Assembly (NCBI GenBank): GCA_026014745.1
Contig: JAOZHS010000001.1
Span: 186,001-250,000 of the forward strand
Length of the DNA: 64,000 nucleotides
Origin: Candidatus Bathyarchaeota archaeon
GTDB lineage: Archaea; Thermoproteota; Bathyarchaeia; Bathyarchaeales; Bathycorpusculaceae
Direction of reading: 5' to 3'
This document shows, in pieces, positions 49,658-52,593 of the stretch (position 1 is the stretch's first letter; each line of letters starts with the position of its first letter). The position numbers and the translations under genes were made by a program. Below the pieces are notes generated by a model that was not told where the DNA came from, did not search any database, and saw only the letters and a list, made by a program, of their open reading frames with translations.

Positions 49658-50203
49658 ATGAGATGCGAAGTCTGCGGACGCAAAATCCACACTGACCCCG
49701 TACATGCAATTATTGAAGGAGCCAGACTTACAGTCTGTGTAGGTTGCTCAAAACATGGCACAGTTATTACTCGCGAAGAAGCAGCAGCGACCCTTGTTTC
49801 GTCTCCGCAGAAGCCCTCTCCAACTAAATCCACTATGCACTTGCCAACAATCCAACGTAAGCCGCCCGTAGCTCAAGTTCAAATCACTACTGAACTCGTA
49901 GATGGCTACGCTACCATAATCCGTAACGCACGCGAAAAACTTGGGTTGTCACATGAGGATTTGGGCAAAAAAATCAATGAGAAGGCTTCCCTTCTTCGTC
50001 ACATCGAAACCGGCAAAGCCGCACCTAACAATCAGCTCGCCAACAAATTAGAGCACGCGCTCAAAATCACGTTGATGGTGCCAATAGCTGACGAAAAAGT
50101 CCAGACTTTACCTAAATCGGCAAGTGACGGTTTAACTTTGGGGGACCTCATCGAGTTAGGTAAAGGCGGAGAGGAGGCACCCAGTAAACGAAAGCTATCC
50201 TAG
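49658..50203 (+). CDS. mbf1: multiprotein bridging factor 1 (zinc ribbon-HTH), possibly read through
   Basis: 181 residues from ATG 49658. A zinc ribbon CEVCGRKI...CVGCSKHG is at about 3-34. A helix-turn-helix of the HTH_3 type follows (YATIIRNAREKLGLSHEDLGKKI...LLRHIETGKAAP). MBF1 couples regulators and TBP in eukaryotes; in archaea its role is less sure, with links to the ribosome. TATA-like ATTATAAAG near 49625 supports this start; ATG 49637 is the alternative. The last four codons (CGA AAG CTA TCC) may exist only because a TGA stop at 50189-50191 has become CGA, see hflX. Confidence 0.9.
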   Translation: MRCEVCGRKIHTDPVHAIIEGARLTVCVGCSKHGTVITREEAAATLVSSPQKPSPTKSTMHLPTIQRKPPVAQVQITTELVDGYATIIRNAREKLGLSHEDLGKKINEKASLLRHIETGKAAPNNQLANKLEHALKITLMVPIADEKVQTLPKSASDGLTLGDLIELGKGGEEAPSKRKLS

Positions 50204-51459
50204 CGCAGCGTAGGCTTAATCGTGAAGAATCCAGCCTGCCTGAACTCAGAAGCCTCGCCCAATCTGCGGGCTACACTATTGTAGGCACCCTTGAGCAGAC
50301 CAGACGTCCCGATGCACGCTACCAGATTGGTGCGGGAAAAGTCGAGGAACTCGCAAAGCTGGTGGAGGAAACAGGCGCAGAGAAGGTTATTTTTGACAAT
50401 CAGCTGCGCACGCTTCAATGTTACAACCTTGCCAAAGCCACCCGCGTCGAAGTCATCGACCGTTTCCAACTGATTTTGGAGCTTTTTAACCGACGCGCCA
50501 CTACCACTGAGGCGCAATTGCAGATCCAGCTTGCCACGTTGAAAAATGAGCTTAAACATGCCCGAGAAAAAGTCCGTTTATCTAAAGGCAGCGAACAACC
50601 TGGCTTTATGGGATTGGGTGCTTATGAGGCAGACGTGTATAAGGACGCCATAAAACTTCAAGTCCAAACCATCCTCAAAAAGCTTGCAGTTATCCGAAAA
50701 AAACGCATTCTCCAACGGGAAAGACGAACCGAGTTAGGGTTCCAAACAATCTCGCTGGCAGGCTACACCAGCTCAGGCAAAAGCACCCTCTTCAACGCCT
50801 TGACCGCGGAGCAGGCAATGGTGGACAAAAGCCTCTTCACCACGCTTTCCACCCAAACCCGCATGATTGAGTTCTCGCGGCGAAGGTTTCTCTTAACTGA
50901 CACAGTAGGTTTCATTGATCGTCTTCCCCTCGGTTTGATTGAGGCGTTTCATTCGACGCTGGAAGAAACCATATACGCCGACTTAATCGTGCTTGTCGTT
51001 GACCTCAGCGAACCACTAGAGACTATTGAGAAGAAGAATCAAGTGTGCCTCGAGACTATTGATCGGCTTGGCGCTTCGGGCATTCCTATGGTGACGGCGC
51101 TCAACAAAATCGACCTCTTAAACCCAGAGGAGCGCGACCAAAAAATGGGTGCCCTCAAGCCAAACATAAAAAACCCGATTCTGCTTTCAGCTAAATGCCA
51201 AACTAACCTCGATGAACTAAAACGCCACATTGTTCGGGTGCTCGAGAAATATATTCATGCCCAATTCACCGTACCCCTTAGCGGTAACATTATGCCTTTC
51301 ATCTCGTGGGTTCATCAGAAAACCGATATTCATAAAGAAAACTATACCAACACCGATGTAGAAGTCGTCTTTGAAGCGGCTCCCTCCGTGGTGGAGCAAG
51401 TTAAACGGAAAGTGGAAGAACTCAATGGAACATTCCAAACCAACCCCGCCCCCAAGTAA
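50188..51459 (+). CDS. hflX: GTPase HflX, start codon ACG (or mutated ATG)
   Basis: Ribosome-associated GTPase that splits stalled or hibernating ribosomes. The frame is open from 50188: residues 2-10 KAILAQRRL and later TLEQTRRPDARYQIGAGKVEEL are the HflX N-domain. The G domain has AGYTSSGKSTL (P-loop), DTVGF and NKID. Full length from 50188 is 423 residues. There is no ATG, GTG or TTG between the stop at 50185-50187 and GTG 50362, which would cut off 58 conserved residues. ACG at 50188 has GGAGG at 50173-50177, 10 bases upstream, and aligns exactly with an expected MKAIL start. Confidence 0.85.
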   Translation, partial: TKAILAQRRLNREESSLPELRSLAQSAGYTIVGTLEQTRRPDARYQIGAGKVEELAKLVEETGAEKVIFDNQLRTLQCYNLAKATRVEVIDRFQLILELFNRRATTTEAQLQIQLATLKNELKHAREKVRLSKGSEQPGFMGLGAYEADVYKDAIKLQVQTILKKLAVIRKKRILQRERRTELGFQTISLAGYTSSGKSTLFNALTAEQAMVDKSLFTTLSTQTRMIEFSRRRFLLTDTVGFIDRLPLGLIEAFHSTLEETIYADLIVLVVDLSEPLETIEKKNQVCLETIDRLGASGIPMVTALNKIDLLNPEERDQKMGALKPNIKNPILLSAKCQTNLDELKRHIVRVLEKYIHAQFTVPLSGNIMPFISWVHQKTDIHKENYTNTDVEVVFEAAPSVVEQVKRKVEELNGTFQTNPAPK

Positions 51460-52003
51460 CCCCAAAATTGTGGTCCTACGCTGGGGACACCGACCGCAAC
51501 GTGACGTACGCTTAACCACGCATGTCGCATTAACCGCTAGGGCGCTTTGTGCTTCGGGTTTCATACTCTCCGACATAGTTGATGCACACCTTGAGGAAAC
51601 CGTGACAAAAATCACTCGAGCTTGGGGCGGAGACTTCCACTTCGAGATGGGTACCTCTTGGAAGCATGCAGTACGCGACTGGAAAAACAGCGGCGGTGTG
51701 GTGGTGCATCTCACCGCTTATGGCGAAAACATCCAGACAAGCGATGTCATGACCAGAATCAAGGCGCAGAGCCGACCCGTGATGTTGCTTGTCGGTAGCC
51801 AAAAGGTTCCCGGCGAATTTTACTCCTCAGAGGTGTCAGATTTTAATGTGGCTGTCGGGAATCAGCCTCATTCGGAATGTGCTGCTTTGGCGATTTTTTT
51901 GGACAGATATTTCTGTGGGGATGAACTCTCAAAAACGTTTGACAAGGCACGCATCGAAATTGTTCCCAAAGATCGCGGTAAAGAAATCAAGACGCATCTG
52001 TAA
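51425..52003 (+). CDS. tRNA (cytidine(56)-2'-O)-methyltransferase
   Basis: aTrm56, an archaeal SPOUT methyltransferase that methylates C56 in the T loop of tRNA. The signature VLRWGHRPQRDVRLTTHVALTARA is at about 16-39 (in parts), with GFILSD and later VGSQKVPGEFY and NVAVGNQPHSE forming the trefoil knot that binds SAM. Length 192 from ATG 51425. It overlaps the hflX end by 35 bases, in one operon. Confidence 0.92.
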   Translation: MEHSKPTPPPSNPKIVVLRWGHRPQRDVRLTTHVALTARALCASGFILSDIVDAHLEETVTKITRAWGGDFHFEMGTSWKHAVRDWKNSGGVVVHLTAYGENIQTSDVMTRIKAQSRPVMLLVGSQKVPGEFYSSEVSDFNVAVGNQPHSECAALAIFLDRYFCGDELSKTFDKARIEIVPKDRGKEIKTHL

Positions 52004-52080
52004 TCTATAGAGTTTGGGTAAGAAGAGTTTTATTGCACCGTGTCGCAGTATTATAGGTGTCAAAAGGAAAATCCGAGATT

Positions 52081-52593
52081 ATGTTATCGACAATTGATGA
52101 TGCAACTTTAACTAAAGTTGCTTTGGCCCTCGGCGAAGAAGACGCCGTTAAACTTATCGAGCACCTCAAAGGTGTCGAAGAAATCACTGACGACGAAATC
52201 GCCAACAAAACCGGTATACGCTTAAACTCGGTGCGCAAAATCCTCTACAAACTCTACGATCACTCGCTTGTGAGCCTTCGCCGAACACGAGACCCCAAAA
52301 CGGGCTGGTTCATTTTTCACTGGAAACTCCAACCTGACCAGTTGGAAGGATTCATACTTAGCCAAAAACGCCGCGTACTTGAAAAACTCAACGTACGCTT
52401 AGAATACGAAAAGAACCATGACTTCTACTTCTGCGGCTGCGCTGACTGCAAACGAGTGCCCTTTGAGGACGCCGTCGAATTGGTTTTTCACTGCTCCAGC
52501 TGCGGCAAACCCCTAGTTCACTATGGCAACGAAGTTATGATAGTGAAGCTTTCTGAAAAAGTCGAGATTCTAAGGAAGGAACTCGGTGAGTGA
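52081..52593 (+). CDS. tfe: transcription initiation factor E, alpha subunit
   Basis: TFE helps open promoters. A winged helix is at about 10-80 (AVKLIEHLKGVEEITDDEIANKTGIRLNSVRKILYKLYDHSLV, read in parts). The zinc ribbon has CGCADCKR...CSSCGKPL (about 115-145). ATG 52081 is preferred: the TATA-like TATTATA near 52048-52054 places the transcript start close to it. GTG 52057 is in frame and would add eight residues. It is overlapped by the HD gene by 8 bases. Confidence 0.93.
   Translation: MLSTIDDATLTKVALALGEEDAVKLIEHLKGVEEITDDEIANKTGIRLNSVRKILYKLYDHSLVSLRRTRDPKTGWFIFHWKLQPDQLEGFILSQKRRVLEKLNVRLEYEKNHDFYFCGCADCKRVPFEDAVELVFHCSSCGKPLVHYGNEVMIVKLSEKVEILRKELGE

Follow-up and report, generated by a model that had tools for sequence, protein, structure and literature searches.

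How is a gene translated when its reading frame offers no start codon ahead of its conserved N-terminus? The question is raised by hflX in the window, by which we mean the whole 64,000-nucleotide stretch of a Candidatus Bathyarchaeota contig that was analysed (genome G000). Read from an ACG, the gene spans 50188..51459 (+), 423 codons plus stop, and its product belongs to the HflX GTPases (TIGR03156, 287.5 bits against a cut-off of 216.75, residues 9-350), with the domains GTP-bdg_N (Pfam, from residue 14), GTP-bdg_M, and MMR_HSR1. Upstream lies mbf1 (49658..50203, +), whose product is an aMBF1 (TIGR00270, 140.4 bits against a cut-off of 110) and whose ATG at 49658 aligns with the start of its relatives; it crosses the ACG in another frame and ends with TAG at 50201-50203, the first base of which lies 13 nt after the A of the ACG. 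On the other side, trm56 for a tRNA 2'-O-methyltransferase (51425..52003, +; Pfam Trm56, start codon assigned by eye) overlaps the end of hflX, and tfe for a TFIIE alpha homologue follows farther downstream (52057..52593, +; Pfam TFIIE_alpha). The same neighbourhood, with mbf1 close to hflX and tfe, has been described for Crenarchaeota (PMC3062615), in a passage that, unlike the present finding, is silent on start codons.

An in-frame TAA at 50185..50187 (+) stands directly before the ACG (50188..50190, +), so that hflX can have no start farther upstream in this genome, and the next ATG, GTG, or TTG of the frame is GTG 50362, 58 codons after the ACG. From 50188 onwards the frame reads ACG AAA GCT ATC CTA GCG CAG CGT AGG (TKAILAQRR), and a Shine-Dalgarno (SD)-like GGAGG at 50173..50177 (+) is situated 10 nt before the ACG. 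A preliminary description of this DNA had already pointed out the lack of any NTG codon in this interval and the spacing of GGAGG, and both observations hold, as does its reading that a T at 50189 would create ATGA, a joint end of mbf1 and start of hflX. It had left three options: an ACG start codon in use, a real mutation of this genome, or a sequencing error.

The relatives of hflX decide between these options. Within the own family, 85 of 90 genomes matched, and 81 were tabulated after partial genes had been dropped, which gave 82 rows as one genome contributed a second copy (L087); in the rest of the order 66 of 72 genomes had a match, of which 40, from seven other families, were sampled, and the order total thus came to 122 hflX rows. 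ACG occupies the exact start position in 104 of the 122, namely in 77 of the 82 family rows (otherwise ATG 3, ATT 1, and ACA after CTG 1), with at least one ACG-bearing member in 27 of the 29 family genera having a row, and in 27 of the 40 rows from other families (otherwise ACA 7, ATA 2, ATG 1, GTG 1, ACT 1, ACC 1). Beyond the own family it recurs in families f2, f4, f5, f6, f7, f8, f9, f16, and f19. Furthermore, 112 of the 122 order rows are devoid of NTG from the in-frame stop up to the conserved N-terminal residue, as is to be expected of a conserved non-canonical start, and an in-frame stop at -1, as in this genome, recurs in 9 of the 104 ACG rows. Seven additional Bathyarchaeota records (L002-L008, hflX 62-83% identical), left out of these counts, likewise have ACG AAA there without exception.

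With ACG in 77/82 family and 27/40 other-family rows, both a mutation private to this genome and a sequencing error are refuted, and an ACG start codon in use, strongly supported by the sequences, is the sole survivor of the three. The comparison of orthologous loci at 50189, which the preliminary description had proposed, did uncover the T it envisaged, but only as a rarity (ATG in 4/122). Its view that one T-to-C change accounts for both the absent hflX start and the extended mbf1 proved wrong as history: no other arrangement is as common as an mbf1 stop at 13 nt beyond the ACG (62 of 103 ACG rows, with mbf1 stops assigned by a script that may have misassigned a few distant rows), and in some relatives mbf1 ends before the ACG, yet the ACG is kept.

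Could the codon simply encode a conserved threonine? Among Thr codons at the start position, 104 of 114 are ACG, as compared to 115 of the 912 Thr codons (12.6%) within codons 1-129 of these genes. Conserved residues nearby vary freely among synonyms; for instance, position 7 is Arg in 120 of 122 rows and uses all six synonymous codons. Position 1 is itself little varied (AAA 91, AAG 9), so low variation alone is not peculiar to the ACG, but the near-fixed third-position G, in what is otherwise the rarest Thr codon, sets it apart from the AAA. Judged by this codon usage, ACG at the hflX start position is not merely a Thr codon. The same locus stood out in a comparison of 201 orthologous gene pairs with the congener G031, in which hflX was the strongest case of conservation ahead of any NTG: 58 aligned columns, 48 of them identical, pass before both genomes reach an NTG.

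The exceptions to ACG are instructive, being mostly ATG in place or AUG-like codons (ATA, ATT, CTG) there or one codon upstream. Within the order, a canonical codon at the exact position was found only as ATG in L038, L059, L074, and L103 and as GTG in L118 (1/122); L102 and L103 share an identical SD and spacer, but one of the pair has ACG and the other ATG. Most rows of family f7 have ACA, ACT, or ACC at position 0, and seven of its ten rows (L104, L108, L109, L114, L116, L119, L127) have ATA as the preceding codon, which in six of these overlaps the TAA of mbf1 as ATAA; an AUA start one codon upstream is therefore likely for f7 hflX on the evidence of these junctions. One codon upstream, ATG occurs in L113 of the same family, as ATGA, and ATT in L131, while L084 has CTG, as CTGA, and L031 has ATT. 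Either the same codon or another near-cognate one is thus kept across genera and families (ACG; ATA, ATT, or ATC elsewhere), and to judge from this pattern it is the weakness of the start, and not the codon itself, that is conserved. Two f6 rows, L120 (GTA-ACA) and L125 (GTA-ATA), are also without NTG, L120 having no clear near-cognate start. Together with L149 (TTA), both fit an ACG or ATA start poorly and count against this explanation.

Outside the order, the class search matched 60 of 61 genomes, and 25 rows were tabulated; L164 and L171 were dropped for an unaligned N-terminus and L159 and L160 for an internal match. Here, ACG appeared in two rows each of f16 and f19, and ATC-ATC in two further f16 rows. 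NTG starts were found in families f10, f18, f22, f23, and f24, in which no mbf1 was found before hflX, but also in f11, f12, f13, f15, and f21 despite mbf1 in that position; as mbf1 linkage is confounded with phylogeny, we draw no conclusion on cause. Outside the table, inspection of L174-L181 revealed an NTG in the open frame upstream in 8/8. Across the phylum, 11 of 11 loci (L182-L192) have TTG or GTG at the exact start position, and seven more (L193-L199), which align less well, have an NTG within seven codons. A tree of the 147 hflX rows (124 columns), poorly resolved with 69 of 144 inner branches open, requires no fewer than 11 switches between NTG and non-NTG, and within the order NTG is found mostly at scattered single tips.

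How might a ribosome begin at such a codon? An SD match of at least 4 bases precedes the start codon in 118 of 122 rows, most commonly at 10 nt (74) or 7 nt (26), and the spacing resembles that of mbf1 (mostly 7-12 nt for the hflX codon as compared to 8-13 nt for mbf1). As a control, the mbf1 starts of the same family loci (n=80) are all canonical, with TTG in 41, GTG in 20, and ATG in 19. No conserved RNA structure indicative of regulation was found around the hflX start in the 41 of 122 rows that were folded (every third; mean z -0.21). A dedicated initiator tRNA that reads ACG was rejected: a pattern search of this genome (G000) found no initiator-like tRNA with anticodon CGU, and its sole match to GGGNTCNTAACCC carries CAT and is a tRNA-Met with anticodon cat according to ARAGORN.

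We consider it very probable, from the sequences compared here, that hflX is translated from a conserved, weak, non-canonical ACG start as the second gene of an mbf1-hflX operon. The SD within the end of mbf1 would position the 30S subunit over the ACG, with which the ordinary initiator tRNA (anticodon CAU) would pair despite a middle-position mismatch, so that HflX output would be low and dependent on initiation fidelity. Since hflX overlaps or abuts the preceding gene, termination-reinitiation after mbf1 is probable, and we infer that Met-tRNAi initiates at the ACG at a low rate, aided by the SD and by ribosomes that finish mbf1. That the ACG is retained over about a hundred species argues for a start that is weak by design, and against an error. 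By analogy to the AUU of bacterial infC, its purpose would be to keep HflX low and responsive to the stringency of initiation (aIF1).

Two other readings take the overlap with mbf1 as their starting point. A programmed -1 frameshift on the overlap could produce an Mbf1-HflX fusion that needs no hflX start, with the SD 10 nt upstream as stimulator, in keeping with the reach of mbf1 to +13 in those 62 of 103 ACG rows and with the purine-rich CGAAAG that commonly follows. Alternatively, the ACG could be an ordinary start without weak-start function, kept only because an NTG before AAA would put TGA into the mbf1 frame, a conflict that holds in 68 of 103 ACG rows, where protection of the mbf1 C-terminus could contribute. 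Neither explains the ACG. In 35 of the 103 ACG rows an NTG would leave the mbf1 frame intact (15 of them have the mbf1 stop at -2, 4 at -11, and the remainder elsewhere), and the ACG is kept all the same; in 26 of the 103, mbf1 has already ended ahead of the ACG, and there the frame left open from upstream that a fusion would call for is not found. A fusion is also at odds with L043 and L095, whose mbf1 stop lies in the hflX frame (at -12 and -6, respectively), with the ATG at the same position in several relatives, and with the canonical starts there across the phylum, all of which makes it very improbable. As to the mbf1 constraint, f7 has ATA in an ATAA overlap where ATGA would serve equally (compare L113), and the constraint would account for codon choice at most partly and still require initiation at ACG; it fails as a general account, and we regard it as unlikely.

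The remaining two concern the ACG itself. C-to-U editing can turn ACG into AUG, as in plastids, and a similar conversion of the hflX mRNA, as known from plant organelles, would accord with ACG being by far the commonest codon here. It would be of no help for the ATA, ATT, ATC, and CTG at the hflX junction, which C-to-U editing cannot convert to AUG, nor for the ATC, ATA, and ATT of the winged-helix-like gene described below, and we know of no mRNA editing of this start-codon kind in archaea; we hence give this possibility very little credence. A shorter HflX from GTG 50362 is what a mechanical list of open reading frames picks, this being the first NTG. Against it, the first 58 codons encode a conserved stretch of protein (48 of 58 residues identical to G031) and vary synonymously among relatives, the N-terminal domain of HflX already begins at residue 14, and the first downstream NTG shifts between genomes and is missing within 60 codons in 12 of the 104 ACG rows; nor is a base error common to about 100 assemblies credible. 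The chance that either a downstream start or a base error explains the locus is negligible.

To our knowledge, very few natural genes have a conserved start other than NTG, namely bacterial infC and pcnB. The former, encoding IF3, has an AUU-type start, and pcnB of E. coli has AUU. The initiation at ACG proposed here resembles infC and pcnB in that a gene of the translation apparatus would keep a weak near-cognate start in the long term, even as the codon changes. Unlike infC, hflX is archaeal, is no initiation factor, mainly uses ACG with its middle-position mismatch instead of AUU, and comes second in an overlapping operon, its weak-start control being a prediction. Termination-reinitiation coupling in archaea offers a further parallel in the overlap or abutment with mbf1, the SD in the upstream gene, and the ATGA, ATAA, or TAACG junctions, but differs with respect to the near-cognate downstream start of hflX; the archaeal cases known to us use canonical starts. 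In the literature on archaeal ACG, non-canonical, or near-cognate starts, hflX, and Bathyarchaeota, as judged without full texts, no conserved non-NTG start was found. For archaea, aIF1 was reported to favour discrimination against non-canonical starts (PMC8211752; PMC6237735). These fidelity studies used test mRNAs in vitro, unlike the natural case of hflX, and their passages on aIF1 mention no natural gene of archaea in which a non-NTG start is conserved.

Bacterial HflX is a ribosome-splitting rescue GTPase, and PMC6310831 names HflX a ribosome-splitting factor in its title. With this in mind, a bolder hypothesis, to which we lend less than even confidence, is that the hflX start serves as a sensor: ACG (or AUA, AUU, or AUC) would be rejected by stringent, aIF1-loaded 30S subunits, and most HflX would arise under relaxed initiation or from post-termination ribosomes that stay on where mbf1 ends, and the protein would then act on stalled ribosomes. 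Near-cognate starts might in this way provide gene-specific control of ribosome-stress and regulatory genes, a counterpart to infC of separate origin that reaches at least a winged-helix-like regulator. The conserved ACG start would tie HflX and aMBF1 to the control of initiation, and its maintenance in about a hundred species would offer a ready-made natural readout of how faithfully archaea select start codons. In addition, gene callers that accept only ATG, GTG, and TTG will shorten HflX or pick a false start.

Is hflX alone in this genome? The scan of gene pairs covered 440 kb of G000 and 400 kb of the congener G031, about one sixth of the genome against one comparator, in which 201 pairs were usable. 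It flagged nine, six of which turned out to be ordinary, one genome or both having an NTG at the conserved stretch or immediately behind it; a looser scan produced 54 candidates, many being either shadow frames or genes whose ATG follows shortly downstream. Besides hflX, a winged-helix-like gene and tmk remain.

The winged-helix-like gene (L250; G000:C1:110024-110284, -; 87 codons, Pfam HTH_20 just under the cut-off) ranked second in the scan after hflX, with 28 columns, 24 of them identical. Half of its 30 loci (L250-L279) lack an NTG before the conserved N-terminus, and 13 of these 15 have ATC (9), ATA (3), or ATT (1) instead, often after GGTGA. As to the other loci, ATG is found one codon upstream in 11, and GTG three codons upstream in 4, inside the GGTG or TGTG of an SD-like stretch. 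On these alignments, the gene is a second instance of a predicted conserved near-cognate start. The thymidylate kinase gene tmk (L280; G000:C1:178313-178927, +) has its ACG in G000 alone, which could thus be a fresh change or an error; 24 of 29 relatives have ATG, GTG, or TTG there. Lastly, about 30 codons' worth of conserved sequence, common with G031, lies upstream of the ATG of the gene at G000:C1:119841-121175 (+), and may represent a leader or promoter.
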